From Bradyrhizobium diversitatis (GTDB taxonomy: Bacteria > Pseudomonadota > Alphaproteobacteria > Rhizobiales > Xanthobacteraceae): a stretch of DNA of 64,000 bases. Made by a program: the position numbers and the translations under genes. This document shows, in pieces, positions 5,502-46,949 of this stretch. Each line of letters starts with the position of its first letter. Position 1 is the first letter of the stretch. The notes beneath the pieces are model-generated. The model did not search any database. It was not told the origin of the DNA and was given only the letters and a program-made list of their open reading frames with translations. The DNA is taken from assembly GCF_016031635.1 (NCBI RefSeq), contig NZ_JACEGD010000008.1:124001-188000 (forward strand), written 5' to 3'.

Positions 5502-5575
5502 TGGGGAATGGTGTAACGGTAGCACAACAGACTCTGACTCTGTTTGTCTTGGTTCGAATCCAGGTTCCCCAGCCA
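5502..5575 (+). tRNA. tRNA-Gln (anticodon CTG)
   Basis: A full cloverleaf can be drawn. The acceptor stem TGGGGAA (5502-5508) pairs with TTCCCCA (5565-5571). The anticodon stem ACAGA/TCTGT encloses the loop CTCTGAC with anticodon CTG, reading the glutamine codon CAG. The T arm carries GGTTCGAATCC. The discriminator base is G and CCA is encoded (5573-5575). No integrase or second copy of the 3' end is seen nearby, so there is no sign that it serves as an attachment site here. Confidence 0.95.
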
Positions 5576-5743
5576 GTTCCTGGCCCTCTTCCAATGTGAA
5601 GTTCCCTGTCCTCCCGACCAGGATTTGCCCAGTGATCGGCCGCGTCGCGCTCGCGACGCTTTGCCTCACTCGCATTCGTATTTCCGGGTCGGATCGCCGC
5701 GCGCAGTATCGTCCTTGGGCCGTACAACCCAAGGAGATCCCTA

Positions 5744-6106: not shown

Positions 6107-6116
6107 GGCGGAGCGG

Positions 6117-6683: not shown

Positions 6684-6747
6684 GGCGAAACTGCGCTGGC
6701 GTGAAACAGGCGCCTCGCTGTAGCGTCGCCGAAGCCGCAGCGCAAGC

Positions 6748-9700
6748 TTACTCGGCGGCTTCCTTGACGCTGCCGTGCTCGGGGGCCTCGTCGCCTTCGC
6801 CATCGCCCGAACGGACCCAGGTGGCGAACCAGTTGTTGAGCTTGTCGAGATAGAGATAGACCACGGGCGTGGTGAACAGCGTCAGCGCCTGGCTGACGAT
6901 CAGGCCGCCGACCATGGCGTAGCCGAGCGGCTGACGGATCTCGGCGCCGGTGCCGTGACCGAGCATCAAGGGCACGCCGCCCAGAAGCGCGGCCATCGTC
7001 GTCATCATGATCGGGCGGAAACGCAACAACGCGGCCTGGCGGATCGATTCCTCCGGCGTCTTGTGCTCGTCGCGCTCGGCGGCGATCGCGAAATCGACCA
7101 TCATGATGCCGTTCTTCTTCACGATGCCGATCAGCAGGATGATGCCGATCAGCGCGATCAGGCTGAAGTCGAAACCCGCCGCCATCAGGATTGCGAGCGC
7201 GCCGACGCCGGCCGAGGGCAGCGTCGACAGGATCGTGATCGGGTGGATGTAGCTCTCGTAGAGAATGCCGAGGATCAGGTAGACCACGACTAGGGCGGCG
7301 AGGATCAAGAGCGGCACGGTGCCGAGCGACTGCTGGAACGCCTGCGCGGTGCCCTGGAAGCTGGAGTTCAGCGTCGGCGGTGCGCCGAGATCGGCCATTG
7401 CCCGCTGCACCGCCTCCGTGGCCTGGCCGAGCGCCACGCCTTGCGCCAGGTTGAAGCTGATCGTGATCGATGGGAACTGGCCTTGATGGCTGATCGAGAG
7501 CGGACGGACCGGGTCGGTGGTCCAGGTCGCGAAGGTCGACAGCGGCACCTGGTCGCCGGTCAACGGCGATTTCAGGTAGAGCTTGTTCAAGCTGTCGAGA
7601 TTGCCCTGCATCTCCGGCAGGATTTCCAGAATGACCTTGTAGGTGTTGAGCTGGGTGAAATACTGCGTGACCTGCCGCTGTCCGAAGGCGTCATACAGCG
7701 TGTCGTCGATCAGCTGCGGCTGGATGCCGTAGCGGGCGGCGGTGTCGCGGTTGATCTTGAGCTGCACCGTTGTGCCCTGTGTCTGCTGGTCGGTCGCGAC
7801 GTCGCGCAGCTGCGGCAGGGTCTGCATTTTGGCGAGGATCTTGGGCGCCCATTCGTTGAGCTCGTCAAGATTGGCGTCCTGCAGCGTGAATTCGAACTGC
7901 GTGCGCGTCGGCCGGCCGCCGAGCCGGACGTCCTGGGCCGCCTGCATGTAAAGCCGGGCGCCCTCGACCTTGTCGAACTGCGGACGCAGCCGCGCGATGA
8001 TCTGCTGAGCAGAGGCCTCGCGCTGATCGCGAGGTTTCAGCGTGATGAACAGGTTGCCGTTGTTGCCGGCGCGGCCGCTGCCGCCGATCGACATGGCAAC
8101 GCTGGCAACGTCGGGATCGGCCATGATGATCTTGCCGAGCTCCTCCTGGCGCCGGGTCATCTCCTTGAACGAAATGTCCTGCGAGGCTTCCGAGGTGGCG
8201 GTGATCAGGCCGACGTCCTGCTGCGGGAAGAAGCCCTTCGGGATCAGGACGAACAGGTAGATCGACAGTCCGAGCGTGACGAAGAAAATTGCAAGCGTGG
8301 TGCGCCGCCAGGCGAGGGCGTGATCGAGCACATATTCGTAGCCGCGCAGCATCGCGTCGAAGGCGCGCTCGCTCCATTGATAGAAGCGGCCGTGCTGAAC
8401 CTCGCCATGGGCGCGCAGGAAGCGCGAGGCCATCATCGGCGTCAGGGTCAGCGACACGAACATCGAAACGAAGATGGTCATCGCCAGCACCACGGCGAAT
8501 TCGCGGAACAGGCGCCCGATGATGCCGCCCATCAGCAGCAGCGGGATCAGCACCGCGACCAGCGAGATGCTGATCGAGACGATGGTGAAGCCGATTTCCT
8601 TGGAGCCCTTGAAGGCGGCCTCCATCGGCGAGTCGCCTTCCTCGATGTAGCGGGTGATGTTCTCGAGCATCACGATGGCGTCGTCGACCACGAAACCGAC
8701 CGCAATGGTGAGTGCCATCAGCGACAGATTGTCGAGCGAATAGCCGACCGGCCACATCAGGGCGCACGCGCCCAGCAGCGCCAATGGCACCGTGACGGTA
8801 GGAATGACCGTCGCCCAGAAGCTGCGCAGGAAAATGAAGATCACCATGACCACGAGTGCGATGGTCAGCAGCAGCGTGAATTGGACGTCCTCGACCGCGG
8901 CGCGGATGGTGGTGGTTCTGTCGCTGATGAGCTCGATCTTGATCGCGGGCGGGATCGCTGCCACGAGGCGGGGCAGGGTCGCCTTGATCCGGTCCACGGT
9001 CTCGATGACGTTGGCGCCGGGCTGCTTGAAGATCACCAGGAAGACGCCGCGCTTGCCATTGGCCCAGGCCGCCTGCTTGGCGTCTTCAGCGGCGCTGACC
9101 GCTCGGCCGATGTCGCGAATCCGCAACGGACCGCCGTTGCGATAGGCGATGATGACGTCGTTCCAGTCCTTCGCCTGGGTGAGCTGGTCGTTGGCGTAGA
9201 TCGTGTAGGCGCGTTTTTCGCCGTCGATATTGCCCTTGGGGCTGTCGACCGTGGTGATCGCAATCTGGCTGCGCACGTCCTCCAGCGACAGGCCCTTGGC
9301 GACGAGCTTCGCCGGGTCGACCTGGATGCGGATCGAAGGTTTCTGCTGGCCGCCGATGAAGACCTGGGCGACGCCCGACAGCTGGCTGATCTGCTGAGCA
9401 AGCTGGGCGTCGACCGCGTCGCTGACGCTGGTCAGCGGCAGCGTCTCTGATGTCGCCGACAATAGCAGGATCGGCGCGTCGGCCGGGTTGACCTTGCGGT
9501 AGGTCGGGGGCGAGGGCAGGTTTTTGGGCAACTGGCCGCTGGCAGCGTTGATGGCGCCCTGGACGTCATTCGCGGCGCCGTCGATGTTGCGGTTGAGGTC
9601 GAACTGGATGGTGATCGACGCCGTGCCCAGATAGCTCGTCGAGGTCATCTGCGCGATGCCGGGGATCTGGGCGAACTGCCGCTCCAGCGGCTGTGCCACC

Positions 9701-32702: not shown

Positions 32703-33872
32703 ATGACCGCCAGCATCGTCGGATGGGCGCATACGCCGTTCGGCAAGTTCGACACCGAAACCGTCGAAAGCCTCGTCACCCGCGTGGCCAACGAAGCGCT
32801 GGCGGACGCCGGCATTTCGGCCGGCGACGTCGACGAGATCGTGCTCGGCCATTTCAACGCCGGCTTCTCCCCTCAGGATTTTACCGCCTCGCTGGTGCTC
32901 CAGGCTGACCCGAAGCTCCGCTTCAAGCCGGCGACCCGCGTCGAGAACGCCTGCGCCACCGGCTCCGCCGCCGTTCACCAGGGCCTGCGCGCGATTGCCG
33001 CAGGGGCTGCCAAGATCGTCCTGGTCGTCGGCGTCGAGCAGATGACGCGCACCCCTAGCGCCGAGATCGGCAAGAACCTGCTCAAGGCGTCCTACCTGCC
33101 CGAGGACGGCGACACCGTCGGCGGCTTCGCCGGCGTGTTCGGCAAGATCGCCAGCTCCTATTTCCAGAAATACGGCGACCAGTCCGATGCGCTGGCGCTG
33201 ATCGCGGCCAAGAACCACAAGAACGGCGTCGCCAATCCCTTCGCCCAGATGCGCAAGGACTTTGGCTTCGACTTCTGCCGCGCCGAGAGCGAGAAGAACC
33301 CTTACGTCGCAGGCCCCTTGAAGCGCACCGATTGCTCGCTGGTCTCCGATGGCGCCGCGGCGCTGGTGCTGGCCGATGCCGAGACCGCCAAGGGCATGAG
33401 CAAGGCGATCGGCTTCCGCGCCACCGCGCATGCCCAGGACTTCCTGCCCATGAGCAAGCGCGACATCCTGCAGTTCGAGGGCTGCACGGTCGCCTGGCAG
33501 CGCGCCCTGGAGAAAGCGGGCGTGACGCTGTCCGATCTCTCCTTCGTCGAGACCCATGACTGCTTCACGGTCGCCGAGCTGATCGAGTACGAAGCGATGG
33601 GCCTGACGCCGAAGGGGCAGGGCGCCCGCGCCATCAAGGAAGGCTGGACGCTCAAGGACGGCAAGCTGCCGGTCAATCCCTCCGGCGGCCTCAAGGCCAA
33701 GGGCCATCCGATCGGCGCCACCGGCGTCTCGATGCATGTGATGACCGCGATGCAGCTCGCAGGGCAGGCCCCCGAGGGCATGCAGCTCAAGAATGCCAAG
33801 CTCGGCGGCATCTTCAACATGGGCGGGGCTGCGGTCGCCAACTACGTCTCCATCCTGGAGCCGCTGAAGTAG
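32703..33872 (+). CDS. acetyl-CoA acetyltransferase (SCP-x type thiolase)
   Basis: A 389-residue thiolase of the sterol-carrier-protein-x group. The nucleophile C84 lies in ENACATGS, the second active-site block is ETHDCFTVAELIEYEA, and the His block NPSGGLKAKGHPIGATG is intact, so it should be active in thiolysis of a 3-ketoacyl-CoA. Strong ribosome binding site (CAGGGAGAGAACATC). It starts an acyl-CoA gene group with a CoA transferase and a second, Cys-less thiolase homologue. Confidence 0.9.
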   Translation: MTASIVGWAHTPFGKFDTETVESLVTRVANEALADAGISAGDVDEIVLGHFNAGFSPQDFTASLVLQADPKLRFKPATRVENACATGSAAVHQGLRAIAAGAAKIVLVVGVEQMTRTPSAEIGKNLLKASYLPEDGDTVGGFAGVFGKIASSYFQKYGDQSDALALIAAKNHKNGVANPFAQMRKDFGFDFCRAESEKNPYVAGPLKRTDCSLVSDGAAALVLADAETAKGMSKAIGFRATAHAQDFLPMSKRDILQFEGCTVAWQRALEKAGVTLSDLSFVETHDCFTVAELIEYEAMGLTPKGQGARAIKEGWTLKDGKLPVNPSGGLKAKGHPIGATGVSMHVMTAMQLAGQAPEGMQLKNAKLGGIFNMGGAAVANYVSILEPLK

Positions 33873-34330: not shown

Positions 34331-35530
34331 ATGGGGCCGCTGAAGGGCATCAAGGTCATCGACATGACCACCGTGTTGATGGGTCCCTATGCGACCCAGA
34401 TGCTCGGCGACTAAGGGGCTGATGTCATCAAGGTGGAGTCGCTGGACGGCGACGTCACCCGCCTGATCGGCCCGATGCGACACGCCGGCATGGGCCCGGT
34501 GTTCCTCAACACCAACCGCAGCAAGCGCTCGATCTGCCTCGATCTGAAAAAGCCCTCGGGGCGCGAGGCCGTGCTGCGGCTGCTCAAGGACGCCGACGTG
34601 CTCGTCTACAACGTCCGTCCGCAGGCGATGGCGCGGCTTCAGCTCGGTTACGATGTCGTTTCCGCCATCAACCCGCGCCTCGTCTATGCTGGCGTGTTCG
34701 GTTTCGGTCAGGACGGGCCCTACGCCGCAAAACCGGCCTATGACGATCTGATCCAGGGTGCCACCGCGCTGCCGGCGCTGATGGCGCAGACCGGCGACGG
34801 CGTGCCGCGCTACGTGCCGAATGCGCTGGTCGACCGCATCGTCGGCCTCACCGCCGTCGGGGCGATCTGCGCCAGCCTCGTGCACCGCGACCGCACCGGC
34901 CGCGGGCAGCGCGTCGACATCCCGATGTTCGAGACCATGGCCGGCTTCGTCATGGGCGATCACATGGGCGGGCTCACCTTCGAGCCGCCGCTCGACAAGG
35001 GCGGCTATGCCCGCCACCTCTCGCGCGACCGCAGGCCCTACAAGACCTCGGACGGCTATCTCAGCGTCATCATCTACAACGACAAGCAGTGGGAGAATTT
35101 CTTCAAGGCCACCGGGCGCGACGATCTGCGCGCCGATCCCAAATTCGCGACCTTCGCGGGTCGCGCCGCCAACATCGATGTGGTCTACGCCGAGCTTGCG
35201 CGCGTCTTCGAGACGCGCACCACGGCCGAGTGGATCGACCTGCTCACCAGGGCCGACGTGCCGGTCATGCCGATGCACGACCTCGCCTCGATCCTGCACG
35301 ACGAGCATCTGGAGGCGACCGGCTTTTTCCCCGTGGTCACTCACCCGACCGAAGGTCCGATTCGCAGCATGAAGGTGACGGCGACCTGGTCCGAGACCGA
35401 GGCCGAGCCGGTGCGCCTGGCGCCGCGGCTCAATGAGCACGGCGCGGAGATTTTGCGCGAGATCGGCTACTCCCAGGACGAGATCGCCGCCATGGTCCGC
35501 GATGGCGTCACGCGCGCGGCTCCGGAGTAG
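34331..35530 (+). pseudogene. CaiB/BaiF-type CoA transferase interrupted by an in-frame TAA
   Basis: From ATG 34331 (GGGAGCAAACG before it) the frame gives [20 protein letters not shown], the family's usual N-terminus, up to Asp27 of GD; codon 28 is TAA (34412-34414), exactly where the family has Tyr in GDYGADVIKVE. The frame then runs on without fault for 371 more residues, including the catalytic Asp region PAYDDLIQGA and a normal C-terminus. TAC or TAT to TAA is a single change. Reinitiation at GTG 34433 would make a protein lacking the first 34 residues and part of the Rossmann fold. This is either a recent loss or a sequencing error. Confidence 0.8.
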
Positions 35531-35676: not shown

Positions 35677-36813
35677 ATGAGCTTCATCACCGGCGTCGGC
35701 CTCACGCCGTTCGGCAAGCACGAAGGCTCGTCCTCGCTCGACCTGATGAGCAAGGCCGCCCAAGCCGCGCTCGACGATGCCGGGCTGAACCGCTCGGACA
35801 TCGACGGCATCCTCTGCGGCTACTCCACCGTCTCGCCGCACATCATGCTCGCCACCGTGTTTGCCGAGCATTTCGGGATTCGTCCGTCTTACGCCCATGC
35901 GGTGCAGGTCGGTGGCGCCACGGGACTCGCGATGACGATGCTCGCGCATCAACTCGTCGACGCCGGCGTCGTGCGCCACGTGCTCGTCGTCGCCGGCGAG
36001 AACCGCCTCACCGGACAGAGCCGCGATGCCTCGATCCAGGCGTTGGCGCAGGTCGGCCATCCCGACTACGAGGTGCCGCTCGGCCCGACCATTCCCGCCT
36101 ATTACGGCCTCGTCGCCAACCGCTACATGCACGAATACGGCGTGACCGAACAGCACCTCGCCGAGTTCGCGGTGCTGATGCGCAAGCACGCCTGCACCCA
36201 TCCCGGCGCGCAATTCCACGATCCCATCACGGTCGCCGACGTCATGGCCTCCAAGCCGGTGGCGATGCCGCTCAAGCTGCTCGATTGCTGCCCGGTCTCC
36301 GACGGCGGCGCGGCGTTCGTCGTCAGCCGAGAGAGAACCGGGGAAGCGGGCGTGCGCATCCGCGGCTGCGCCCAGGCCCACACGCATCAGCATGTCACGG
36401 CAGCGCCCGCCCTCGGCGAACTCGGCGCCGAGATCTCTATCGCGCGAGCAAAGGCGGCCACGGGTCTCGCGATCTCCGACGTGTGCTATGCCGCGATCTA
36501 CGACAGCTTTACGATCACGCTTGCGATGCTGCTGGAAGATCTGGGTCTTGCCGGCCGCGGCGAAGCGGCCGCGCGCGTCCGCGCCGGCCATTTCGGCCGC
36601 GACGGTGCCATGCCGCTCAACACCCATGGCGGTCTGCTCAGCTACGGCCATTGCGGCGTCGGCGGCGCCATGGCGCATCTGGTCGAGGCGCATTTGCAGA
36701 TGACGGGCCGGGCGACGAATCGGCAGGTGCGCGATGCCTCGATCGCGCTGCTGCACGGCGACGGCGGCGTGCTGTCGTCTCACGTCAGCATGTTTCTGGA
36801 GCGGGTCAGATGA
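35677..36813 (+). CDS. thiolase-like protein lacking the catalytic cysteine (Ltp-type)
   Basis: A 378-residue thiolase-fold protein of the lipid-transfer-protein group. Where true thiolases have the nucleophile in NACATG, this has QVGGATG, with G80 in place of Cys; the His block is changed to NTHGGLLSYGHCGVGG. It thus should not perform Claisen thiolysis. Its start codon-overlapped partner is a DUF35 zinc-ribbon/OB protein. Such Ltp-DUF35 pairs include Ltp2-type retro-aldolases that split acetyl- or propionyl-CoA from hydroxyacyl-CoA in steroid side-chain removal; a similar retro-aldol or acyl-transfer role is inferred. Confidence 0.85.
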   Translation: MSFITGVGLTPFGKHEGSSSLDLMSKAAQAALDDAGLNRSDIDGILCGYSTVSPHIMLATVFAEHFGIRPSYAHAVQVGGATGLAMTMLAHQLVDAGVVRHVLVVAGENRLTGQSRDASIQALAQVGHPDYEVPLGPTIPAYYGLVANRYMHEYGVTEQHLAEFAVLMRKHACTHPGAQFHDPITVADVMASKPVAMPLKLLDCCPVSDGGAAFVVSRERTGEAGVRIRGCAQAHTHQHVTAAPALGELGAEISIARAKAATGLAISDVCYAAIYDSFTITLAMLLEDLGLAGRGEAAARVRAGHFGRDGAMPLNTHGGLLSYGHCGVGGAMAHLVEAHLQMTGRATNRQVRDASIALLHGDGGVLSSHVSMFLERVR

Positions 36814-37169
36814 GCGAGCGTCTCGCGGACTGGACCAAGGGCGAAGAGGCGATCACGTTTCAGGCCTGTGACGCGTGCGGCCATGTGCAGTATTTCCACC
36901 GCGCCTTCTGCGCGGCCTGCGGCGCACCTGATCCGCGCGAGCAGCGTGCCAGCGGCAAGGGCAGGGTCTACGCGACCTCATTGGTCTGCCGCGCGGCAAC
37001 ACCCGAGACGCGCGCCCACGTGCCCTACAACATCCTGCTGGTCGATTGCGCCGAGGGGTTTCGCATGATGGCGCACGGCGCGAACGATCTCGCCATCGGC
37101 GATTCGGTCGTCGCGAGCTTCAAGCCCTTTGCGGGAAAGCTCGTGCCGTTCTTCACGAAGAGGGCCTAG
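36810..37169 (+). CDS. DUF35 zinc-ribbon / OB-fold acyl-CoA-associated protein
   Basis: A 119-residue protein with an N-terminal rubredoxin-like zinc ribbon (CDACG near 21-25 and CAACG near 34-38) and an OB-fold (GRVYATSLVCR to the C-terminus FFTKRA). Its ATG overlaps the stop of the thiolase-like gene by four bases, so the two are coupled. DUF35 proteins form complexes with thiolase-fold partners and help bind acyl-CoA; here it is surely the partner of the upstream product. Confidence 0.88.
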   Translation: MSERLADWTKGEEAITFQACDACGHVQYFHRAFCAACGAPDPREQRASGKGRVYATSLVCRAATPETRAHVPYNILLVDCAEGFRMMAHGANDLAIGDSVVASFKPFAGKLVPFFTKRA

Positions 37170-37177
37170 CGGGATTC

Positions 37178-37257
37178 GTCATTCGGGGGCGGTCATGGGA
37201 CCGAGCCTGGAACGGGTATTCTGGGCCTGGCCTGTGCGAGGGCCACCCCGGAATGAC
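37178..37257. repeat. palindromic intergenic element, GTCATTCCGGGG family, copy 3 (diverged)
   Basis: Outer ends GTCATTCGGGGGCGG and CCACCCCGGAATGAC pair, but the middle is shorter and less symmetric than copies 1 and 2 (22183 and 35561). It lies right after the DUF35 gene. Confidence 0.75.
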
Positions 37258-37276
37258 GAAAACGCTAAAACTCGAA

Positions 37277-37378
37277 CTAACGCCCGTAGAACAAGATGCT
37301 GGCGATGACGAGCATCGCCGTCACCGCCAGCATATGCGCGAGCGCTCCCGAGGCCGCCCCCTTGGTGGCTTCCTTCAT
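37277..37378 (-). CDS. 33-residue single-span membrane protein
   Basis: On the minus strand ATG 37378, preceded by TAGGGAGAGAACGGC, encodes 33 residues: a short charged start (MKEATKGAASGALAH) and one membrane span (MLAVTAMLVIASILFYG) ending in Arg. The ribosome binding site and the clean N-in/C-out-type layout argue that it is translated. No family is recognised and there is no partner gene on this strand. It would usually be missed by gene callers. Confidence 0.5.
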   Translation of the reverse strand: MKEATKGAASGALAHMLAVTAMLVIASILFYGR

Positions 37379-37649
37379 GCCGTTCTCTCCCTAGACTTGG
37401 GCATGACTCATCGTTGCGCGGTTAGCGCACATGATGGCCAATTGTTTTTACTCGGAACACCCCTTGCGAGTATCCGCCGCGATTTGTCCCCACGCGGCGA
37501 ATATCGACAGTGTCAGGGTCGATCAGCAATGCGGCGGCAATTTGACTCGATGATGTTGCTCCTGCGTCCGCCCGCGAATAGAGTCTTCGGGAACTTTCGC
37601 CGGTGGCGACAAGAAGCATCAAAAGCTCAGGGAAAACTTCAGGAAAATC
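37379..37649. other. gene-free stretch with a short hairpin
   Basis: I find no supported gene. The pair CGCCGCG / CGCGGCG (37475-37481 and 37493-37499) can form a seven-pair stem with an 11-base loop. The stretch likely holds the promoters of the small minus-strand gene and of the AhpD-like gene. Confidence 0.35.
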
Positions 37650-38177
37650 ATGGCCCGCATCCCGTACAGCGACCCGTCCAAGGCATCCGACCGCACCCGC
37701 GAAATCCTCGACAAGAACCGTCATGCCAACATCTTTCGGATGATGGCGCATTCGCCGAGTTACTTTGAGCAATATTGCCGCCTCGGTGGCGCTATCAGGC
37801 ACAAGGGCGAGCTCGATCCCATCGTGCGCGAGCTCGCGATCACCCGCACCGGCATCTTGTGCGAGGCGCCGTACGAGATCGTCGCGCACAAGCGCATCGG
37901 CAAGAACGTCGGCGTCACCGACGAGCAGAACGAGGCGCTCGAGAACTGGCAGGCGGCGTCCTGCTTCGATGAGGTGGAGCGCGCCGCGCTCGCCTTTACC
38001 GACGAGGTCGTGAAGCTGAAGAAGCCGACGGACGCGACGTTCAAGGCGATCGCGTCGAAGCTGACGCCGGCCGCTCTGGTCGAATTGCAGCTCTCGGTCG
38101 GCTTCTACATCATGACTTCGAAATTCCTGGAGACCTTCGAGATCGACCTCCAGCCGGTCACGGAAGTGGTGGGCTAA
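37650..38177 (+). CDS. carboxymuconolactone decarboxylase / AhpD-like protein
   Basis: A 175-residue helical protein of the CMD family: RELAITRTGILCEAPYEIVAHKRIGKNVG carries the family's core with Cys and the His about nine residues on, but only one Cys of the AhpD-type CxxC pair. Members are either lactone decarboxylases or peroxidase-reducing proteins; with one Cys, an AhpD-type thiol relay is unlikely. Start ATG 37650 with CAGGAAAATC before it. Function open. Confidence 0.8.
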   Translation: MARIPYSDPSKASDRTREILDKNRHANIFRMMAHSPSYFEQYCRLGGAIRHKGELDPIVRELAITRTGILCEAPYEIVAHKRIGKNVGVTDEQNEALENWQAASCFDEVERAALAFTDEVVKLKKPTDATFKAIASKLTPAALVELQLSVGFYIMTSKFLETFEIDLQPVTEVVG

Positions 38178-38203
38178 TCAGACAGAAGCGGCGAGGGAAG
38201 TCG

Positions 38204-38506
38204 ATGACGATCGATGAATATGCGGCTTGGGCCGCTGGCGTTGCCAAAGTCGACGAGCATCCGTCCAACGAGCGGTTGTCCTATCTCGGTCTTGGCCTTG
38301 CCGGTGAATCCGGCGAGGTCGCCGACCACATCAAGAAGCTCCTGCGCGACGATTGGCTCGACAAGGCGGGTCTCGTCGAAGAGCTCGGCGATGTCGTCTA
38401 TTACTGGGCCTGCCTGTGCGCCGCCACCGGCCAGCAGCCATCCGCGCTGCTCGATGCCAGTGCTGCCAAGATCAAGCGACGCATCAGCGAAGCTGCGAGC
38501 CGCTGA
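38204..38506 (+). CDS. MazG-like nucleoside triphosphate pyrophosphohydrolase
   Basis: A 100-residue all-alpha NTP pyrophosphohydrolase of the MazG-like group. The magnesium site ExxE...ExxD is visible: E35 and E38 (GESGEV) and E60 and D63 (EELGDVVYY). It would hydrolyse a (possibly damaged) nucleoside triphosphate to the monophosphate. Start ATG 38204 follows GAGGGAAGTCG. It lies 26 bases after the AhpD-like gene and may share its transcript. Confidence 0.85.
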   Translation: MTIDEYAAWAAGVAKVDEHPSNERLSYLGLGLAGESGEVADHIKKLLRDDWLDKAGLVEELGDVVYYWACLCAATGQQPSALLDASAAKIKRRISEAASR

Positions 38507-38545
38507 GCAAACGGCGTCGGCTGAGGCACCGACAGTTTCCACAGC

Positions 38546-38630
38546 GTCATGGGCCGGGCTTGTCCCGGCCATCCACGCCTTGCCACGCAGCACGGAGAAC
38601 GTGGATGCCCGGGACAAGCCCGGGCATGAC
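38546..38630. repeat. palindromic intergenic element, GTCATGGCCGGGCTTGTCC family
   Basis: GTCATGGGCCGGGCTTGTCC... pairs with ...GGGACAAGCCCGGGCATGAC at the other end, with ATCCACG / CGTGGAT inside. It lies between convergent genes (the MazG-like gene and the glutaminase fusion), where it may also end transcription. Confidence 0.85.
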
Positions 38631-38657
38631 GATCTCATGGGAATGAATGCCTACCGC

Positions 38658-40505
38658 TCACGTCGACGTCAGAATATCCACCTTCGCGTTGGCGACGATC
38701 AGGCGGTCGGCCAGCAGCTGGGCGAGGTTGCGCATGATGCATTCGCTGGCGCGTGGATGCTGCTTGCGGAAGCGTTCGAAATCCTTCAGCGACACTTCGC
38801 ATGCGGTTGCCGCCATGTCGGCTGACACGTCGGCAGAACGCGTTGCCTCCAGCAGTGCCATCTCGCCGAATGCCATGCCGGCGGTGAGCGTCGCCAGCCG
38901 TATGCCGTCTGGCAAGGTGACGTGCACCGCGCCGCTGCGCAGGAAATACAGGGCATCCGCAGGATCGCCGGTCGTGAGAATCTTCGCGCCGGACTGATAG
39001 GTCCTGACGGTGCAGAGCGAAGCGAGATCCGTCAGCTCTTCCTCGCTCAGCCCCGCCAGCAGGGGCTGCTCGGCAAGCTCGGTGGTCTCGTGAAAATCGA
39101 TCGAGCCGCCGTAGCGATAGACGATCTGGTCTTCGGCCCATTCGATCGCGGTATCGAGCAGAAAGAAGTCGCGCACGTTCTTCAACTCGGCGGTCCATTC
39201 GCGCAACGTGTTCCATTCCTTGGAGGCGCGCCGGACGCCTGACAAGACCACCGTGACATTCAGCGCAGCCAGTTCCTCGAACGCTTCTGCGACCAGCCGT
39301 GCGCCGGCGCGAGTAGTCGAGGTCACGCGGTGCAGATCGAAGATCACGAATTGCGGCCGCGGCCGGCCGGCGAGGCGCCGCGAGACGTAATCGACGGCCG
39401 ACAGCGACAGCGTGCCGACCAGCTCGATGATCCGCACCTCCTGTTCGTGTGCCGCCAGGATCTCGCGCTCCTGCGGGCGGCGCACGCGGCGCGACGGGCT
39501 CTTGCCGATGTCGTAATCGGCGATGACGGCATTGCGCGCGTCGTCGCTGCGGTTGAGCATGTGCAGATCGTAATGTGAGGACAGCGCCTCGCAGACCTTG
39601 ATGCCGCGCACGCTGTTGCCGTGCTTGTCGAGGCGCGGTGAATAGCTGCCGAGACCGAGACGCGCGGGGAGGGCGGCCAAAATGCCGCCGCCGACGCCGC
39701 TCTTGGCAGGAATGCCGATGCGGTAGATCCACTCGCCCGCATAGTCGTACATGCCCGACGACGTCATCACCGAGAGCGTGCGCGAGATCGCGTAAGCGCT
39801 GAGCACCTGCTCGCCCGTGACGGGATTGATGCCGCGATTGGCGAGCGTCGCCGCCATCACCGCGATGTCGCGCGCGGTGACCAGCACGGCGCATTGGCGG
39901 AAATAGACGTCGAGGACACCGGCGACATTGTCCGAGATGACCGCATTGGTCTTCAGCAGATAGCCGATGGCGCGGTTGCGGTCGCCGGTCTGACTTTCGG
40001 AAGCATAGACGGCCTCGTCGAGCGCGAGGTCGCGTCCGGCAAAGCGGCTGAGCGCAGTGCGAATCTGCTCGAAGGCCTCCACGCCCTTGCTGTCGTAGAT
40101 CAGCCCGGTGCAGGCGATCGCGCCGGCATTGACCATCGGGTTGAACGGATGGTTCTCGGAATTGAGCCGGATCGAGTTGAAGGGATCGCCCGATGGCTCC
40201 ACGCCGATCGCGCTCTCGACCCTGCCGGCGCCGAGCAGGTCCAGCGCCAGTGCGAACACGAAGGGCTTCGACATCGACTGGATGGTGAAGGGTACCCGGC
40301 TGTCGCCCACTTCATAGACATGGCCGTCCAGTGTGGCGAGGCTGATGCCAAAATAGGCAGGGTCGGCCTTGCCGAGTTCAGGAATGTAGTCGGCGACATG
40401 GCCCGAGGTCTCGGCGGAGAATTCGCTGAGGCAATTGTCCAGGAACCGCAGCAAAGGCGGTTTCGAGCGGGTCCAGGCGGAGGCGGCGGACAGGTGCGGC
40501 TTCAT
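38658..40505 (-). CDS. glsA: glutaminase fused to STAS and cyclic-nucleotide-binding domains
   Basis: A 615-residue three-domain protein. Residues 20-315 are a glutaminase A domain with the beta-lactamase-like S77-x-x-K80 (QSMSKPF) and NPMVNAGAI, converting glutamine to glutamate and ammonia. Residues about 355-465 form a STAS domain (VRIIELVGTLSLSAVDYV; VIFDLHRVTSTTRAG). Residues about 485-600 form a cyclic-nucleotide-binding domain whose phosphate cassette FGEMALLEATRSADV keeps the Glu and Arg. Ordinary glutaminases are about 310 residues. The gene starts 22 bases after the TRAP permease stop; ATG 40505 is taken (TTG 40526 possible). Control of activity or localisation by cAMP/cGMP is inferred. 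Confidence 0.88.
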   Translation of the reverse strand: MKPHLSAASAWTRSKPPLLRFLDNCLSEFSAETSGHVADYIPELGKADPAYFGISLATLDGHVYEVGDSRVPFTIQSMSKPFVFALALDLLGAGRVESAIGVEPSGDPFNSIRLNSENHPFNPMVNAGAIACTGLIYDSKGVEAFEQIRTALSRFAGRDLALDEAVYASESQTGDRNRAIGYLLKTNAVISDNVAGVLDVYFRQCAVLVTARDIAVMAATLANRGINPVTGEQVLSAYAISRTLSVMTSSGMYDYAGEWIYRIGIPAKSGVGGGILAALPARLGLGSYSPRLDKHGNSVRGIKVCEALSSHYDLHMLNRSDDARNAVIADYDIGKSPSRRVRRPQEREILAAHEQEVRIIELVGTLSLSAVDYVSRRLAGRPRPQFVIFDLHRVTSTTRAGARLVAEAFEELAALNVTVVLSGVRRASKEWNTLREWTAELKNVRDFFLLDTAIEWAEDQIVYRYGGSIDFHETTELAEQPLLAGLSEEELTDLASLCTVRTYQSGAKILTTGDPADALYFLRSGAVHVTLPDGIRLATLTAGMAFGEMALLEATRSADVSADMAATACEVSLKDFERFRKQHPRASECIMRNLAQLLADRLIVANAKVDILTST

Positions 40506-40526
40506 CGCCGCACTTGTGCAACGCAA

Positions 40527-42602
40527 TTAAGGCACGCGCAACCCGTCCGGCATCACAGGCTGGCGTCGGACCAGAAGAAGCGCGATCAAGATCGTCGGCA
40601 GCAAGATCGCAAGGCCCAGCAAGGTCACCTGCATCTGTGACAGCGGCATGATCCCGCCGCCGGGGGTCGCCACCACGAAGCCGCCGATCACGAGCAGCAC
40701 GCGAATGGGCCATTCCAGCGCGCCGGCACCGCGGAGATCGCCGACGAAGGGCTGGTAGCCCTGGATGCCGCCGCAGATGAACAGCGTGCCGAAGGCGGCG
40801 AGCCCCATCAGGCCGAGGCCGGCGAGATAGGGGCTCGGCCCTTGCAACACCAGGGCCGGATTGAGCACGAAGAAGAACGGCAGGAAATAGATGATGCTGC
40901 CGACCCACATCGATTCCCACCCGGTCTTCATCGCCGGCGAGCCGGCGATGCCCGCGGCCGCGAACGAGGCGATCGCGACCGGCGGCGTGATCGACGACAG
41001 CATGCCCCAGTAGAAGATGAACATGTGCACCGCCATGCGGTTGAGCCCGAGCTTCTCCAGCGCGGGCGCGACCAGGATGGCCAGGAAGATGTAGCAGGCC
41101 GTCGTCGTCAGCCCGAGCCCGAGAATGAGGCTGGTGAGCGCGCACATGCCGAGCAGCAGGAAGGCGTTGTCGCCGGCGATGTGCAGGAGGTCGTTGGCGA
41201 GGCTCGAGACGACGCCGGTCATCGAGAATGCGCCGATCAGCAGGCCGCAGCCGGCGAGGATGCCGACGAGCTCCACGAAGGTGCGTCCGTTCACCTCGAG
41301 GAATTTGCCGATCGTCGCCAACGTCCAGCGCGTGTCCTTGGAGAAGAACTGGTTGAGGACCAGCAGCAGCGCGGTGGCGTAGAACGGCGCGTGACTCTCG
41401 CGCTTGAAGTAAAGCAGCATCACGATCAAAAGCGCGATGACGAAGACGTAGTACCAGCCGTCCTTGATCGTATCCATGATCCGCGGCAGCTCGGCGCGCG
41501 GGATGCCTTTCAGCTTGTGGCGGGCCGCATAGGCGTCGACCTGCATGAACAGGCCGATGTAATAGAGCACCGCCGGAATGATCGCGGCGATTGCGACGTC
41601 AGCGTAGCTGACATTGAGGAACTGCGCGATCACGAAGGCGGTGGCGCCCATCACCGGCGGCGCCAGCACCGCGCCGGTCGAGGCGCAGGCCTCGATCGCG
41701 GCAGCATAGGAGGCGCGGAAGCCGCTTTTCTTCATGACGGGGATGGTCATGGTGCCGGCGGTCAGCACGTTGGAGATGATCGAGCCCGACATCATGCCGA
41801 GCAGGCCGCTGGCAAAGATGCAGACTTTCGCCGCGCCGCCACGGAAGGTGCCGCACAGCGCGAAGGCGAGGTTGATGAAGAATTTTCCGGCCCCGGTCAT
41901 CATCAGCGCGGTGCCGAATACGAGGAAGCCGATGACGGTGTCGGCAAAGGCCTGGATGGGAATTCCGAGCAGGCTTTCGCCCGACAGCACGTGATAGGCG
42001 GTCGCCTGTTCCAGCGTCGATTGAGTGCCGCGGAACGGGCCGAGCCAGCCGGCTTCGGCGAACAGCGGATAGACCGTGAAGGGCAAAACGCTCAGCAGCA
42101 GGCTCCAGCCGCCGGTGCGGCGCAGCGCCTCCATTAGCATTCCCCACATCACGAGGCCGGCGGCGATCACGCCCGTCGGCGCGCCGCCGAATTCCCAGCC
42201 GGCCTCCGCCGCCTTGCGCACGTTCGACATCAGCATGAGCGCTGCCGCGAAGGTCGCGACAAAAAGGACGAGGTCGTACCAGGGAATGCGATCGAGCGAC
42301 GCACGCGACGTTCCCGGAAAGATCAGGAAGGTGAAGGGCAGCATCAAGGCGATCAGGAGATAGAAATACTCCGTGTTGAGCTGGGTGTAGCCGATGAAGA
42401 AGCGCAGCGAGAATTGCTGATTGATGCAGAGCAGGATCGTCGCCGCGGTCGCGACGACCAGCGCCCAGCGCCAGGCACCGCGAAGTGCGCGCACGCGCGT
42501 GACCTCCGCCTCCTGCATGTTGGCGGCGGCGCCATGCGGATCGTCGAACACGACCCGCTTGGTCTCGTCTTGCGGGGCGGTGGTGGTGGAGGAAGACATC
42601 AT
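40527..42602 (-). CDS. fused TRAP transporter permease (DctQ-DctM type, TAXI system)
   Basis: A 691-residue inner-membrane protein with about 16-18 membrane segments: a small-permease (DctQ) part fused to the large permease (DctM) part, as is usual in TAXI-type TRAP systems. It shows the DctM motifs around TGAGKFFINLAFALCGTFRGG and GMMSGSIISNVLTAGTMTIP, and repeats these later (LGLTTTACYIFLAILVAPAL). It moves an organic acid with sodium or proton flow. It lies between the TAXI binding-protein gene (upstream) and the glutaminase fusion (22 bases downstream). Confidence 0.92.
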   Translation of the reverse strand: MMSSSTTTAPQDETKRVVFDDPHGAAANMQEAEVTRVRALRGAWRWALVVATAATILLCINQQFSLRFFIGYTQLNTEYFYLLIALMLPFTFLIFPGTSRASLDRIPWYDLVLFVATFAAALMLMSNVRKAAEAGWEFGGAPTGVIAAGLVMWGMLMEALRRTGGWSLLLSVLPFTVYPLFAEAGWLGPFRGTQSTLEQATAYHVLSGESLLGIPIQAFADTVIGFLVFGTALMMTGAGKFFINLAFALCGTFRGGAAKVCIFASGLLGMMSGSIISNVLTAGTMTIPVMKKSGFRASYAAAIEACASTGAVLAPPVMGATAFVIAQFLNVSYADVAIAAIIPAVLYYIGLFMQVDAYAARHKLKGIPRAELPRIMDTIKDGWYYVFVIALLIVMLLYFKRESHAPFYATALLLVLNQFFSKDTRWTLATIGKFLEVNGRTFVELVGILAGCGLLIGAFSMTGVVSSLANDLLHIAGDNAFLLLGMCALTSLILGLGLTTTACYIFLAILVAPALEKLGLNRMAVHMFIFYWGMLSSITPPVAIASFAAAGIAGSPAMKTGWESMWVGSIIYFLPFFFVLNPALVLQGPSPYLAGLGLMGLAAFGTLFICGGIQGYQPFVGDLRGAGALEWPIRVLLVIGGFVVATPGGGIMPLSQMQVTLLGLAILLPTILIALLLVRRQPVMPDGLRVP

Positions 42603-42678
42603 TGATCCCGCGCGTGGGCTACTGTGCAGATCAGGCGAACGACAGTTGTTTGAATCGCTCGCGCCGCGGGCGACGAAA

Positions 42679-42793
42679 CCTCTCCCGCTTGCGGGAGAGG
42701 TCGCCGCGAAGCGGCGGGTGAGGGTTCTCTACTCTGGGGGAGTCCCACCGTGGAGACACCCTCTCCCCAACCCTCTCCCGCAAGCGGGAGAGG
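42679..42793. repeat. palindromic intergenic element, CCTCTCCCGC family
   Basis: CCTCTCCCGCTTGCGGGAGAGG is itself a perfect hairpin at 42679-42700, and CCTCTCCCGCAAGCGGGAGAGG at 42772-42793 is a second one; the two also pair with each other. The element sits between the TAXI gene and the permease gene, and may lower permease expression relative to the binding protein. Confidence 0.88.
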
Positions 42794-42835
42794 GGGCGCA
42801 CCGCGGTCCCGGCAACCGACAATCCCATTGCGCGA

Positions 42836-44002
42836 CTATTCCTCGAACCCGTTCGGCATGTTGGCCTTGGCGAGTGCTGTCGCGCGGGCCTTCATCCAGC
42901 CGTCGAGAAACGCCTTGTCCTCCGACGCTGGATTGGACTTGCCGTAATCGGCCCACGCGGCTGCCAGCACCTCCTGCCGCTTGATCAGCTGGTTGTTGTG
43001 CGCCTCCTGCGCATCGCTCCATTGCCCGGCTTCCTTCAGCGCCTTCACCGCGCCGGGATGCACCGGCACCACCCAGTTCTTGGTCTGGCGGTCGGCGGCG
43101 AGACCGCCGGCGCCGGGCGCGGAGTCCTTGTAAGCGTCGTAGTTCACGATCATCGCCTTGGTCACTGCGTAGACCTGATCGGCCGGTTGCGACGCGTAGG
43201 CGACGAAGATCGGATAGGGATAGTTGCCGAGCTCGACCGGCTTTTGCGGCGAGATGCCGGCGCCGCAGGTGGCGGCTTGCGGGAAGAAGAACGAGCCGAC
43301 CTTCTGCATCCGCGCCCAGCCTTCCTTGTCTTTGGCCGGGAGCGGCGGCCAGATCAACCCGCGCGGCGAAGCCTCGGCCTCCTTGGCGGGACCGGTGATG
43401 GTGGTGCCGAAGGCGGCATCGACGTCGTTGTTGATGAGGCCCTTCCACATCGCGCCGTAGCTGGCGAACTCGACGGCCTTGACGTCCTTCTGCGTCAGCC
43501 CGGCGAAGGCGAGCACCGCGAGCGAGTTCTGGTTCAGCGCGGGCGAGCCGACGACGAAGCCGACGCGCTTGCCCTTGAGGTCCTTCAGCTCCTTCACGCC
43601 GGTGTCGGCGGCGACGCCGAGCGAGGCGCAGTTGCAGTCGACGGTCGAGAGCAGGGTCTGCAGCGGTTGCGGCCCCCATTCCTTCGAGCCGAACTCGAAC
43701 ACACCTTCCTGCGCGAAGTAGGTGCCCGATCCCATCGCCGATGAGGCCGCGCGCTTGGCGCGCAACGGCGCGAGGCGGGCGACATCGTTGCCTGCGGGAA
43801 GCACGCGCACATCGGTGCCGTACTTGTCCTTCATCATCTTGCCGACTCCGACCGCGATGTTGAAGCCGGCGGTTCCGGTGTCATAGGCCGTGAAGGTCAA
43901 TGTCGCCGGCAGCTTGATGTCTTCGGCGAACGAATAGCGTGTAGACGCAAAAGAAATGCCCGCCACCAAGGCAGGCGCGAGCACGAGCAGCCCACGAAGC
44001 AT
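42836..44002 (-). CDS. TAXI-family TRAP solute-binding protein
   Basis: A 388-residue periplasmic protein with a signal peptide (MLRGLLVLAPALVAGISFAS...FAED) and the TAXI fold: FTAYDTGTAGFNIAVGVGK, VRVLPAGNDVARLAPLRA and LKGKRVGFVVGSPALNQNS. TAXI proteins bind glutamate/glutamine or other carboxylates. Start ATG 44002 is chosen for TTGGAGGGAAAC right before it; the open frame extends upstream without a ribosome binding site. It leads the operon TAXI - TRAP permease - glutaminase fusion. Confidence 0.9.
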   Translation of the reverse strand: MLRGLLVLAPALVAGISFASTRYSFAEDIKLPATLTFTAYDTGTAGFNIAVGVGKMMKDKYGTDVRVLPAGNDVARLAPLRAKRAASSAMGSGTYFAQEGVFEFGSKEWGPQPLQTLLSTVDCNCASLGVAADTGVKELKDLKGKRVGFVVGSPALNQNSLAVLAFAGLTQKDVKAVEFASYGAMWKGLINNDVDAAFGTTITGPAKEAEASPRGLIWPPLPAKDKEGWARMQKVGSFFFPQAATCGAGISPQKPVELGNYPYPIFVAYASQPADQVYAVTKAMIVNYDAYKDSAPGAGGLAADRQTKNWVVPVHPGAVKALKEAGQWSDAQEAHNNQLIKRQEVLAAAWADYGKSNPASEDKAFLDGWMKARATALAKANMPNGFEE

Positions 44003-44168
44003 GTTTCCCTCCAATGATCCTCGCTTGCTTGCGAGGATTTTCTTTCTTTGTTTGAAACAACGTTTTGTTTGCAACAGATCATGTCACCGCGATCAAGCGA
44101 TGGCAACGCCGTACCGAGCATTCGGGAATGAGCCTGACAGATTGTCGCGGAAACCGCGAAGAATACAG

Positions 44169-44390
44169 TCAGTTCGCGACGATCGCGATCGCCTGTCCCT
44201 CGGCAACGACGTCGTCGAGCTTCACCAGAAGCGATGTGATTGTGCCGCTCGCGGGCGAGGGCACCGGAATTTCCATCTTCATTGCTTCGACAACTACAAC
44301 GTCATCGCCATCCGCGACGGTTCCTCCAACTTGCACGGGAGTTGCGCAGACGCGTCCCGCGATCTCCGTGACGATCTTAATTTCTGGCAT
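44169..44390 (-). CDS. biotinyl/lipoyl-domain carrier protein
   Basis: A 73-residue protein that is nothing but a biotinyl domain: AGRVCATPVQVG, the biotin-lysine motif VEAMKMEIPV (K38) and SPASGTITSLLVK. A free-standing BCCP-like protein of this size acts as carboxyl carrier in multi-subunit acyl-CoA carboxylases. It is divergent from the IclR gene and the carboxyltransferase gene beyond, so it may be the carrier of that carboxylase. ATG 44390 is chosen. Confidence 0.88.
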   Translation of the reverse strand: MPEIKIVTEIAGRVCATPVQVGGTVADGDDVVVVEAMKMEIPVPSPASGTITSLLVKLDDVVAEGQAIAIVAN

Positions 44391-44445
44391 GCCATCGCCT
44401 TTTTGTTGTCGTCGCAAAATGCCTGAGGTAGCGTCGTCTGCAAGT

Positions 44446-44469
44446 GGAATTTAATTCCGCACAGCGGAA
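44446..44469 (+). promoter_or_regulatory. overlapping palindromes before the iclR-type gene
   Basis: GGAATTTAATTCC (44446-44458) and TTCCGCACAGCGGAA (44455-44469) are perfect inverted repeats that share four bases. TTCCGC-N3-GCGGAA is the kind of site used by several IclR-family regulators. It lies 17 bases before the IclR start and in the divergent gap to the carrier gene, so it probably serves autoregulation and control of both directions. Confidence 0.6.
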
Positions 44470-44485
44470 CATAACGGTAGGGATC

Positions 44486-45460
44486 ATGGGACGACGTTCG
44501 GAGCGGTTGAGTAGGCAAGGTGCGCTCGCTGGCGATGCCGGTGAGGGTGATGTCATCCAGGTGGTCTCGCGCGCGTTCGACGTGTTGCGATGCTTCGAGG
44601 GCCACGAGGCGAGGCTCGGCAATCTCGAGATTTCGAACCGCTGCGGTCTGCCGCGCTCGACGGTATCGCGGCTCACGCACACGCTGACCCGCATGGGCCA
44701 GCTCGTCTATCTGCCGCGCGATCAGAAATATCGCATCGGCCCGAGCGCGGTGGCGATGAGCGCCTCGATGATGAAGGGTGCACAGCTGCGCAGCATGATC
44801 CGGCAGCGACTGCAGGAAGTGGCCGAGCAATTGCCGGGCACCGTCGGCTTCGTCGTCCCCGATCGCTTCCATCTCGTCTATCTCCAGTTCGCGCGCTCGC
44901 CCTCTGCACTCGGCTTGCACGAGGGCACCGGCAGCCGCATCGCGATGGCCTCGACCGCAGCAGGCGCGGCCTACACGGCGGCACTATCGCCGGAAGTCGG
45001 CGACGCCTTCATCGCTGAGATGGAGCGCGAAGCGCCCGAGGCTGCGAAGATCCTCAAGCCTCGCATCGAGGCCAACAGGCAGTCGTTGCGCGAGCGTGGC
45101 TATGTCGTGGCCTGCGGCCTCTGGAGCCCGCACATCAACGGCCTCGCGGTACCGATCTGGTCGCCGCAATACCAGACCTTCGTCGTCATCACGATCGGCC
45201 TCTTGGCTGCGATGTATGACGAGCAGCGTCTGCATGCCGAAGTCGCCCCGCTGATGCTGCAGCTTGGCCGCTCGCTCGGCAGCCTGATGGAAGGCGCGGA
45301 GGGCGACGCCTTCAGCAACCGTATCTCGCGTAAACCGGTCGCCATGGCCGTGCACAACAATAACAAGCCGATCAATTCGGAGGGAGTGAATGAACTGGAA
45401 GCCGGAACTCGACGAGCTCGCCCGGCGCGAAGCCTTCGCGCGGGAGATGGGCGGCGTTGA
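44486..45460 (+). CDS. IclR-family transcriptional regulator
   Basis: A 324-residue regulator: N-terminal winged helix-turn-helix (VVSRAFDVLRCFEGHEARLG, then NRCGLPRSTVSRLTHTL) and an IclR effector domain (about 115-290). Start ATG 44486 follows GGTAGGGATC. Its last 71 bases overlap the carboxyltransferase gene in another frame, and the final 24 residues (LEAGTRRARPARSLRAG...) are unlike the family, so the overlap probably arose by extension. It likely controls the divergent carrier gene and the downstream carboxyltransferase and oxidoreductase genes. Confidence 0.88.
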   Translation: MGRRSERLSRQGALAGDAGEGDVIQVVSRAFDVLRCFEGHEARLGNLEISNRCGLPRSTVSRLTHTLTRMGQLVYLPRDQKYRIGPSAVAMSASMMKGAQLRSMIRQRLQEVAEQLPGTVGFVVPDRFHLVYLQFARSPSALGLHEGTGSRIAMASTAAGAAYTAALSPEVGDAFIAEMEREAPEAAKILKPRIEANRQSLRERGYVVACGLWSPHINGLAVPIWSPQYQTFVVITIGLLAAMYDEQRLHAEVAPLMLQLGRSLGSLMEGAEGDAFSNRISRKPVAMAVHNNNKPINSEGVNELEAGTRRARPARSLRAGDGRR

Positions 45461-46949
45461 CAAGGTCAAGCGACAGCATGACCAGGGCCGGCTGACTGTT
45501 CGGGAGCGTATCGACAAGCTGATCGACAAAGGCAGCTTTCACGAGATCGGTGCCGTCTCCGGCATCGGTGAGTACGATTCCAGCGGCGAGCTGCAGAAAC
45601 TGACGCCGGCCAACTGCGTGTTCGGCCGCGGGCGCGTCGACGGCCGCACCGTCGTCGTGGTCGGCGACGATTTCACGGTGCGCGGCGGCTCGGCCGATGC
45701 ATCGATCTCCGCCAAGCCGCTGATGGCGGAGGAGATGGCGCACGATTTCCGTCTGCCCATCGTCCGCATCATCGAGGGCTCCGGCGGCGGTGGCTCGGTC
45801 AAGACCATCGAGACCAAGGGGGCGGCGAACCTGCCCGGCGGCATCGGCGGCACGCGCTGGTATCGTTTCACGACGGAAAATCTGTCGCGCGTGCCTGTGG
45901 TCGCACTCGGCCTCGGCTCGGTGGCGGGCCTGGGTGCGGCGCGTCTTGCCGCCAGCCACTATTCCATCATGACCCGGAAGTCCGCGATGTTCGTCGCCGG
46001 GCCGCCGGTGGTGAAGGCGCTGGGGCAGGACCTGACGAAGGAGGAGCTCGGCGGCGCTGACATTCAGACCCGCGCCGGCGCGGTCGATCACGCCGTCGAC
46101 ACCGAGGAGGAGGCCTTTGCCTGCGCGCGGCGTTTCCTCTCCTATCTGCCGTCATCGGTCTACGAGCTGCCGCCGACATTGCCCTGCACCGACGATCCGG
46201 AGCGCGGCGACGAGGCGCTGATGAATGCGGTGCCGCGCAACCGCAAGCAGGTCTACAAGATGCGACCGATCATCGAGTCCGTCGTCGACAGGGGCTCGTT
46301 CTTCGAGGTTGCCAGGAATTTCGGCAAGCCGATCATTGTCGGCCTCGCTCGGCTCGAGGGCAGGGCGGTGCTCCTGCTGGCCAGCGACAGCTTTCATTAT
46401 GGCGGCTCCTGGACCGCGGATGCCTGCCAGAAAGTGGTGCGCTGGGTCGACTTTGCCGAAACCTTCCATCTGCCGGTCGTCTATCTCATGGATTGCCCCG
46501 GCTTCATGATCGGTCTCGATGCCGAGAAGGCGGCCACCATCCGCCACGGCGTGCGCGCCATGGCCGCGGTCAACCAGACCACGGTGCCCTGGTGCACCGT
46601 GATCCTGCGCAACGCCTTCGGCGTCGCCGGCGTCGTGCATCAACCCGCCGACCGCTTCTCGATCCGCTATGCCTGGCCGTCGGCCTATTGGGGCTCGCTC
46701 CCGCTCGAAGGCGGCATCGAAGCCGCCTACCGTGCCGACATCGATGCGGCGGAAGACAAGGCGGGCAAGCTGAAGGAGATCGAGGAGCGCCTCAACAGGC
46801 TGCGCTCGCCGTTCCGCTCGGCCGAGAAATTCTGGGTCGAGGAGATCATCGATCCCAGGAAGACGCGGTCGCTGCTGTGCGAGTTCGCCCGGCTGGCGGA
46901 GCCCTTGCGCAAGCCGGGGCCGCCGGAGAACTTTTCGATCCGGCCGTAG
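45390..46949 (+). CDS. acyl-CoA carboxylase carboxyltransferase subunit
   Basis: A 519-residue carboxyltransferase of the propionyl/methylcrotonyl-CoA carboxylase beta type with both crotonase-fold halves: RIIEGSGGGGSVKTIETKGA and GGTRWYR in the first, ASDSFHYGGSWTADACQKVVRWVD and MDCPGFMIG in the second. It moves a carboxyl group from biotin to an acyl-CoA. The biotin carrier could be the small divergent protein, but no biotin carboxylase gene is in the neighbourhood. Start ATG 45390 follows CGGAGGGAGTGA inside the IclR gene. Confidence 0.85.
   Translation: MNWKPELDELARREAFAREMGGVDKVKRQHDQGRLTVRERIDKLIDKGSFHEIGAVSGIGEYDSSGELQKLTPANCVFGRGRVDGRTVVVVGDDFTVRGGSADASISAKPLMAEEMAHDFRLPIVRIIEGSGGGGSVKTIETKGAANLPGGIGGTRWYRFTTENLSRVPVVALGLGSVAGLGAARLAASHYSIMTRKSAMFVAGPPVVKALGQDLTKEELGGADIQTRAGAVDHAVDTEEEAFACARRFLSYLPSSVYELPPTLPCTDDPERGDEALMNAVPRNRKQVYKMRPIIESVVDRGSFFEVARNFGKPIIVGLARLEGRAVLLLASDSFHYGGSWTADACQKVVRWVDFAETFHLPVVYLMDCPGFMIGLDAEKAATIRHGVRAMAAVNQTTVPWCTVILRNAFGVAGVVHQPADRFSIRYAWPSAYWGSLPLEGGIEAAYRADIDAAEDKAGKLKEIEERLNRLRSPFRSAEKFWVEEIIDPRKTRSLLCEFARLAEPLRKPGPPENFSIRP

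Follow-up and report, generated by a model that had tools for sequence, protein, structure and literature searches.

A glutaminase gene of Bradyrhizobium diversitatis raises two questions: what purpose is served by the STAS domain and the cyclic-nucleotide-binding domain (CNBD) that are fused to the enzyme, and whether the TAXI-TRAP transporter genes directly upstream of it provide its substrate. The gene lies in a stretch of 64,000 nucleotides of this 8.45 Mb genome (contig NZ_JACEGD010000008.1, positions 124,001 to 188,000), which we refer to as the window and to which all positions of the locus refer. Glutaminase stands between nitrogen and carbon metabolism. The reading that we favour, with a probability of roughly 0.6, is that the window encodes a glutaminase that is cytosolic, has its active site intact and would be controlled via its STAS-CNBD part by a cyclic nucleotide, most likely cAMP, and that the transporter would have a separate function. 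If this is true, direct cyclic-nucleotide control would represent a fast switch in rhizobia, with glutamine breakdown placed under immediate second-messenger control and not regulated via transcription. A TAXI transporter does not import glutamine merely because its genes adjoin a glutaminase gene, and this tempting interpretation of the locus is probably wrong. The order and positions of the three genes, which an initial annotation of the sequence had placed in one direction, are confirmed by profile matches on the minus strand, running from the TAXI binding protein through the fused TRAP permease to the glutaminase fusion:

42836..44002, minus strand: TAXI-family TRAP solute-binding protein, 388 aa (TIGR02122)
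42603..42835, minus strand: spacer separating the binding-protein and permease genes, holding two palindromic repeat copies in inverted orientation (42679-42700 and 42772-42793)
40527..42602, minus strand: fused TRAP permease (TIGR02123)
38658..40505, minus strand: Glutaminase-STAS-CNBD protein (Pfam/NCBIfam), likely 615 aa with its ATG at 40505
39558..40403, minus strand: serine-dependent glutaminase domain PF04960, residues 42-323 of a 622-aa frame
39219..39455, minus strand: STAS domain, residues 358-436 (Pfam)
38757..39005, minus strand: CNBD, residues 508-590, with cassette residues Glu555 and Arg563
44169..44417, minus strand: biotin carboxyl carrier-like protein, whose gene adjoins that of the glutaminase at loci without the TRAP cassette

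The glutaminase open frame extends over 38658-40526, and its upstream end is a TTG at 40526 (the 622-aa frame). From the permease stop to the likely ATG at 40505 there are 21 bases; the close spacing described in the initial annotation is therefore real, and its figure of 22 bases is not. This is the only tight junction at the locus, as binding protein and permease are separated by about 233 bases. Pfam recovers the proposed three-domain architecture in full, with matches to Glutaminase (E 2.4e-113; PF04960, 378.5 bits against a cut-off of 27), STAS (E 4.1e-7; 30.2 bits, cut-off 22.6) and cNMP_binding (E 5e-17), and TIGR03814 also matches the fusion (337.3 bits, cut-off 255.4). For the residue counts, the window protein was aligned with 111 other sequences, consisting of 80 orthologues (the best 80 of the 458 relatives that the genome collection yielded) and 31 further three-domain proteins, namely a paralogue on contig 3 of the window genome together with more distant homologues. 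Catalytic Ser84 and Lys87 are kept in 80/80 orthologues and 31/31 further proteins (111/111), and the same holds for Glu177, Asn184, Tyr208, Tyr260 and Val278; Asn133 is kept in 79/80 and 31/31, respectively. We take the Ser-x-x-Lys motif and the Tyr, Asn, Glu and Val residues to have the catalytic or conserved roles assigned to them in serine-dependent glutaminases. The cassette FGEMALL...TRSADV is present exactly as first quoted, and its Glu555 and Arg563, presumably the ligands of ribose and phosphate, were correctly said to be kept: they occur in 80/80 orthologues and in 28/28 further proteins with an unbroken frame.

Purifying selection acts on all three domains of the fusion, with the TRAP genes present or not, the median dN/dS being 0.070-0.125 in the 24 loci without TRAP and 0.097-0.170 in 20 loci with it (window included). 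The AlphaFold model of the fusion has a mean pLDDT of 52 and is fair for the STAS and CNBD parts only; with this poor overall model, Foldseek matches the CNBD to cAMP receptors that include Clr-cAMP and GlxR (rmsd 2.4-3.5 A, about 130-153 aligned columns), Clr-cAMP being the best-ranked soluble cAMP receptor at 2.4-2.9 A. On the favoured reading, cAMP made by separate cyclases would bind to the CNBD and shift it, and the STAS domain would relay this shift to the glutaminase oligomer, thereby speeding up or slowing down the breakdown of glutamine into glutamate and ammonia.

The gating proposed in the initial annotation draws indirect support from these conserved cassette residues and from the genes for cyclases, phosphodiesterase-like proteins or CNBD proteins that lie beside some distant homologues. 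In genome G1064 (locus L151), a CHASE2-cyclase gene (7281-9482), a metallo-beta-lactamase-fold (MBL-fold) gene (6480-7244) and a three-domain glutaminase gene (4431-6260) follow one another on one strand, and the MBL-fold protein has a PDEase_II match above cut-off, making it a putative cAMP phosphodiesterase; in G1129, of the same genus, the fusion sits on a contig too short to reveal such an arrangement. Genome G039 (L141) has a divergent CHASE2 cyclase about 3 kb off as measured to the cyclase domain, with a FAD-binding-domain gene between, and a gene for a single-domain CNBD protein directly downstream of the fusion. A divergent CHASE2 cyclase also lies within 3 kb of the fusion in G1429 (L159). 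In G285 (L143), the gene just upstream of the fusion encodes a CNBD-patatin protein of the neuropathy-target-esterase (NTE) type, a SulP-STAS-CNBD transporter gene is found about 4 kb away and a cyclase about 10 kb away. CNBD genes are common generally, numbering 6 to 28 per genome in 12 genomes. CHASE2 cyclases and cAMP act in symbiosis in Sinorhizobium meliloti, according to one report (PMC13001267).

Proximity to cyclases was compared with a Poisson expectation derived from the cyclase count of each genome, using one locus per genus; the locus of the window itself was not counted, nor were L170 and the remaining Bradyrhizobium orthologues. A cyclase domain lies within 3 kb in 3/19 genera (expected 0.21, p about 0.001) and within 20 kb in 6/19 (expected 1.3, p 0.0008); over 30 loci, the corresponding counts are 3 and 8, with 0.32 and 2.0 expected. 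Forty genomes with a glutaminase-domain-only match served as a control, and 31/40 have a cyclase; no cyclase was seen within 20 kb of these plain glutaminases among the matches listed (of 266), the nearest among those being about 32 kb away (G417). Short contigs bias the test against detecting neighbours. The association of the three-domain glutaminase with cyclases is thus likely to be real but sparse. Whether cAMP or another 3',5'-cyclic nucleotide acts as a direct switch for a family of bacterial glutaminases by way of a STAS-CNBD part shared with SulP proteins, with at least one genome placing CHASE2 cyclase, phosphodiesterase and effector on one strand, is on sequence grounds an evenly balanced question.

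Several points weigh against this interpretation. The cyclase test used distance cut-offs that were set after the loci had been inspected, and one family accounts for two of its three close loci (G039 and G1429). No cyclase occurs in the fetched flanks (up to about 9 kb per side, and much shorter on several contigs) of 27/31 further three-domain loci, and in the window genome there is none on the contig of the window copy, the nearest to the second copy being about 31 kb away. The PDEase_II match of the MBL-fold protein spans just residues 45-108, and a generic beta-lactamase model scores higher. The reading frame is broken inside the CNBD in 3/31 further proteins. Finally, a permease orthologue is found in 56/80 loci and lies at most 70 bases upstream of the glutaminase in 55/80 (in L074, 1767 bases intervene), and such tight spacing could reflect a functional link in those strains. 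The frame-broken proteins (L165, L166 and L167) all belong to one genus, and L165 and L166 break at nearly the same place, which may be either an assembly error or a real loss.

The CNBD might instead be a structural or oligomerisation domain that is no longer nucleotide-responsive or that binds another ligand. Some CNBD-fold domains, such as those of FNR and hERG, have lost nucleotide binding, and the dN/dS of the CNBD is somewhat above that of the catalytic domain (0.125-0.170 vs 0.070-0.097). However, lost binding would not maintain the cassette Glu and Arg in proteins that are about 40% identical overall, and the genes for cyclases and phosphodiesterase-like proteins that neighbour some distant homologues also speak against this explanation, which we regard as unlikely. 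Doubtful to a greater degree is a localising role, in which STAS-CNBD would dock the glutaminase onto another protein with a STAS domain, for instance a SulP transporter or a partner of the anti-sigma type, with the nucleotide controlling docking and not catalysis. The STAS-CNBD stretch does align with the STAS-CNBD pair of the L143 SulP protein in 10/12 loci tested (21-31% identity, E 4e-10 to 7e-32; 27.5% for the window protein), and in L143 itself the SulP gene is, as noted, close to the fusion. Yet a SulP gene is found in the fetched flanks of just 1/31 loci, and the classical phosphoserine of STAS domains is not kept. The site that aligns with this SpoIIAA residue, which we assume to be equivalent and where a Ser in the conserved STAS loop would presumably be phosphorylated, is occupied by Arg406 in 80/80 orthologues; in the 31 further proteins it varies, the six most frequent residues being N, A, E, D, P and Q. 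A SpoIIAA-like phosphoswitch was accordingly rejected, as Ser is absent at the site in the orthologues. The alignment with the SulP pair suggests that the glutaminase may have gained STAS-CNBD as a ready-made two-domain regulatory module. This resemblance, together with the selection that persists where no TRAP gene is adjacent, argues against the earlier suggestion that the STAS domain tethers the enzyme to the permease.

That the TAXI-TRAP system imports glutamine (or glutamate) for a nucleotide-gated glutaminase, possibly STAS-tethered to the permease, was the central proposal of the initial annotation. It is consistent with the tight spacing given above and with two papers, by which several characterised TAXI proteins bind glutamate or glutamine (PMC11574862, PMC12344293). 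An obligate unit would have transporter and enzyme conserved together, and this is not what is found. Binding protein and permease are both missing in 24/80 loci that keep the glutaminase, where flanking genes match those of the window and the biotin carrier gene is next to the enzyme; no orthologue of the binding protein occurs elsewhere in 23/23 of these TRAP-less genomes searched (L048 left out), 3 of them having no binding-protein match at all and 20 having long matches of at most 26% identity and short pieces of at most 41%. Presence and absence of TRAP on the glutaminase tree call for at least 6 changes, 3 of which are forced by well-supported branches. In 17/24 TRAP-less loci, 103 bases around the glutaminase start resemble the 3' end of the permease gene more closely than any of 300 mononucleotide shuffles does, a test not passed in the remaining 7/24; this resemblance disfavours transporter gain, and the TRAP-less loci most likely arose by transporter loss, more than once. 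The reverse case is seen in genome G006 (L186 6324-9872), where binding protein (78%) and permease (86%) are retained at the same place and the glutaminase is reduced to a 53-residue 3' remnant between the permease and a carboxymuconolactone-decarboxylase-family gene. Beyond these orthologues, a TRAP permease or TAXI gene occurs in the fetched flanks of 0/31 further three-domain loci, including that of the contig 3 paralogue (640 aa, 59% identical), which lies directly downstream of an MFS transporter gene. The repeated losses with the enzyme kept, the G006 deletion and the lack of TRAP genes at the other loci together indicate that transporter and enzyme are paired at a single Bradyrhizobium locus and that the enzyme can do without this pairing.

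The binding protein itself points in the same direction. Both transporter genes belong to the TAXI-TRAP family by profile (TIGR02122, 289.3 bits against a cut-off of 84.35; TIGR02123, 651.8 bits against 320.65), as do VcGluP and TtGluBP on the side of the binding proteins (TIGR02122). The nearest solved TAXI structures are five weak PDB matches (E 5.5e-10 to 7.2e-9), among them TtGluBP chain 1us4 (E 2.7e-9). According to one study, loss of Tyr45 or Gln93 lowers the glutamate affinity of VcGluP 213- or 990-fold, respectively, and the equivalent Gln may matter less in TtGluBP (PMC11574862); known TAXI substrates also include 2-oxoglutarate and o-phthalate. Unlike VcGluP, the window protein aligns Gly46 or a two-residue gap to Tyr45 and Met90 or a gap to Gln93, and neither Tyr nor Gln is present in any alignment, which is only moderately sure for so distant a relative (E 2.7e-9 to 1us4); both segments are invariant in 15/15 binding-protein orthologues. 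The AlphaFold model of the binding protein (mean pLDDT 36) is too poor for use. Five TRAP-less Bradyrhizobium genomes (L171-L174, L182) possess a different TAXI protein in which the Tyr45 equivalent is kept and that of Gln93 is not.

Relatives of the binding protein were found in 39 plasmid records, and the 4 that were inspected (43-45% identical) have no glutaminase nearby. Their surroundings include acyl-CoA dehydrogenases, MaoC, PaaI, a thiolase with an OB-fold protein and an IclR regulator (L189); MaoC, an AMP-binding enzyme and fumarate hydratase (L190); fumarate hydratase, a citrate-lyase-family protein and an aminotransferase (L188); and a fumarylacetoacetate-hydrolase-family protein (L187). 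Glutamine import by the TRAP system was rejected on its separability from the enzyme, its binding residues and this CoA-thioester acid context, and we regard it as very improbable. Our best guess from gene context is that the substrate would be an organic acid, perhaps one that is later converted to a CoA thioester. On the favoured reading, the upstream TAXI-TRAP system would be an importer of an organic or aromatic acid and would belong with the surrounding genes of CoA-thioester chemistry; the placement of its genes points to co-transcription with the glutaminase gene in many Bradyrhizobium strains, but the enzyme does not depend on the transporter. The genes in question are:

32703-33872: thiolase
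34433-35530: class III CoA-transferase
35677-36813: second thiolase
45390-46949: carboxyltransferase

Further off in the window are genes for a GMC oxidoreductase and for an IclR regulator; the regulator matches the PcaR/PcaU family best in NCBIfam, though below the cut-off of that family.

The three-domain fusion is uncommon. At a threshold of E 1e-100, which also admits the three frame-broken proteins, full matches were found in 12/398 genomes sampled from a phylum (10/12 belong to the genus of the window, the window genome among them), in 5/385 of a class sample, in 5/349 of another order and in 34/397 of the home order, where 15/34 are of that genus. No plasmid-borne three-domain glutaminase was found at E 1e-60, where 28 records matched and the best covers 59% of the query. 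Among characterised enzymes, the salt-tolerant glutaminase Mglu of Micrococcus luteus (PDB 3agd, 3if5) is alignable over residues 24-326 (E 3.4e-81) and provides Foldseek's top matches for the fusion, with an rmsd near 18 A owing to the poor model. Its chain measures 456 residues vs 615 in the window fusion; we take its C-terminal part to be STAS-like and know of no CNBD in it. Human kidney-type glutaminase (GLS) belongs to the same catalytic family (E about 1e-78), and its catalytic core is followed by a regulatory tail of ankyrin repeats, not by STAS-CNBD. SulP anion transporters with a C-terminal STAS-CNBD share this domain pair and its order, and the alignment runs through both domains; there the pair is carried by a membrane transporter, whereas in the window it is carried by a predicted soluble enzyme. 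A precedent for an enzyme-CNBD fusion is mycobacterial Pat, a cAMP-regulated protein acetyltransferase in which the CNBD precedes an unrelated enzyme domain; the CNBD match of the window protein to NF058543 is weak (E 3.7e-5, far under cut-off). We found no description of a bacterial glutaminase-STAS-CNBD combination, nor any experimental work on this family, in the open full-text literature, subscription papers being mostly outside this coverage. One paper was discarded as a precedent, as the passage concerned merely lists glutaminase, STAS and cNMP as separate domains found with PX domains in eukaryotes (PMC2837644).

The spacer between the binding protein and permease genes (42603-42835) holds two inverted copies of a 22-base palindrome. 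Its strong fold (z -8.7) is accounted for by this inverted pair, which is present in only part of the strains: the spacer exceeds 90 bases in 24/53 measurable loci, 20/24 of which show a simple palindrome pattern, and in the other 29/53 it is shorter and the pattern is absent. A known structured RNA was rejected, with no Rfam match at gathering score over 36000-46000. The repeat evidently comes and goes, and may perhaps tune the ratio of binding protein to permease. Some orthologous loci depart from the common layout in other respects. Two tandem TAXI binding-protein genes precede a single permease in L077 (1509 and 2731). The permease orthologue matches about 2200 bases at 72-76% identity in L021, L028, L031, L062 and L075, vs the usual 2070 or so, apparently owing to an insertion of about 40 residues. 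A record titled Frankia sp. RB7 (L065) holds the Bradyrhizobium locus at 92% identity and is probably a mislabelled or contaminated assembly. Among the more distant loci, L143 (7151-15359) is a cluster of three different CNBD proteins, comprising glutaminase-STAS-CNBD, CNBD-patatin and SulP-STAS-CNBD.

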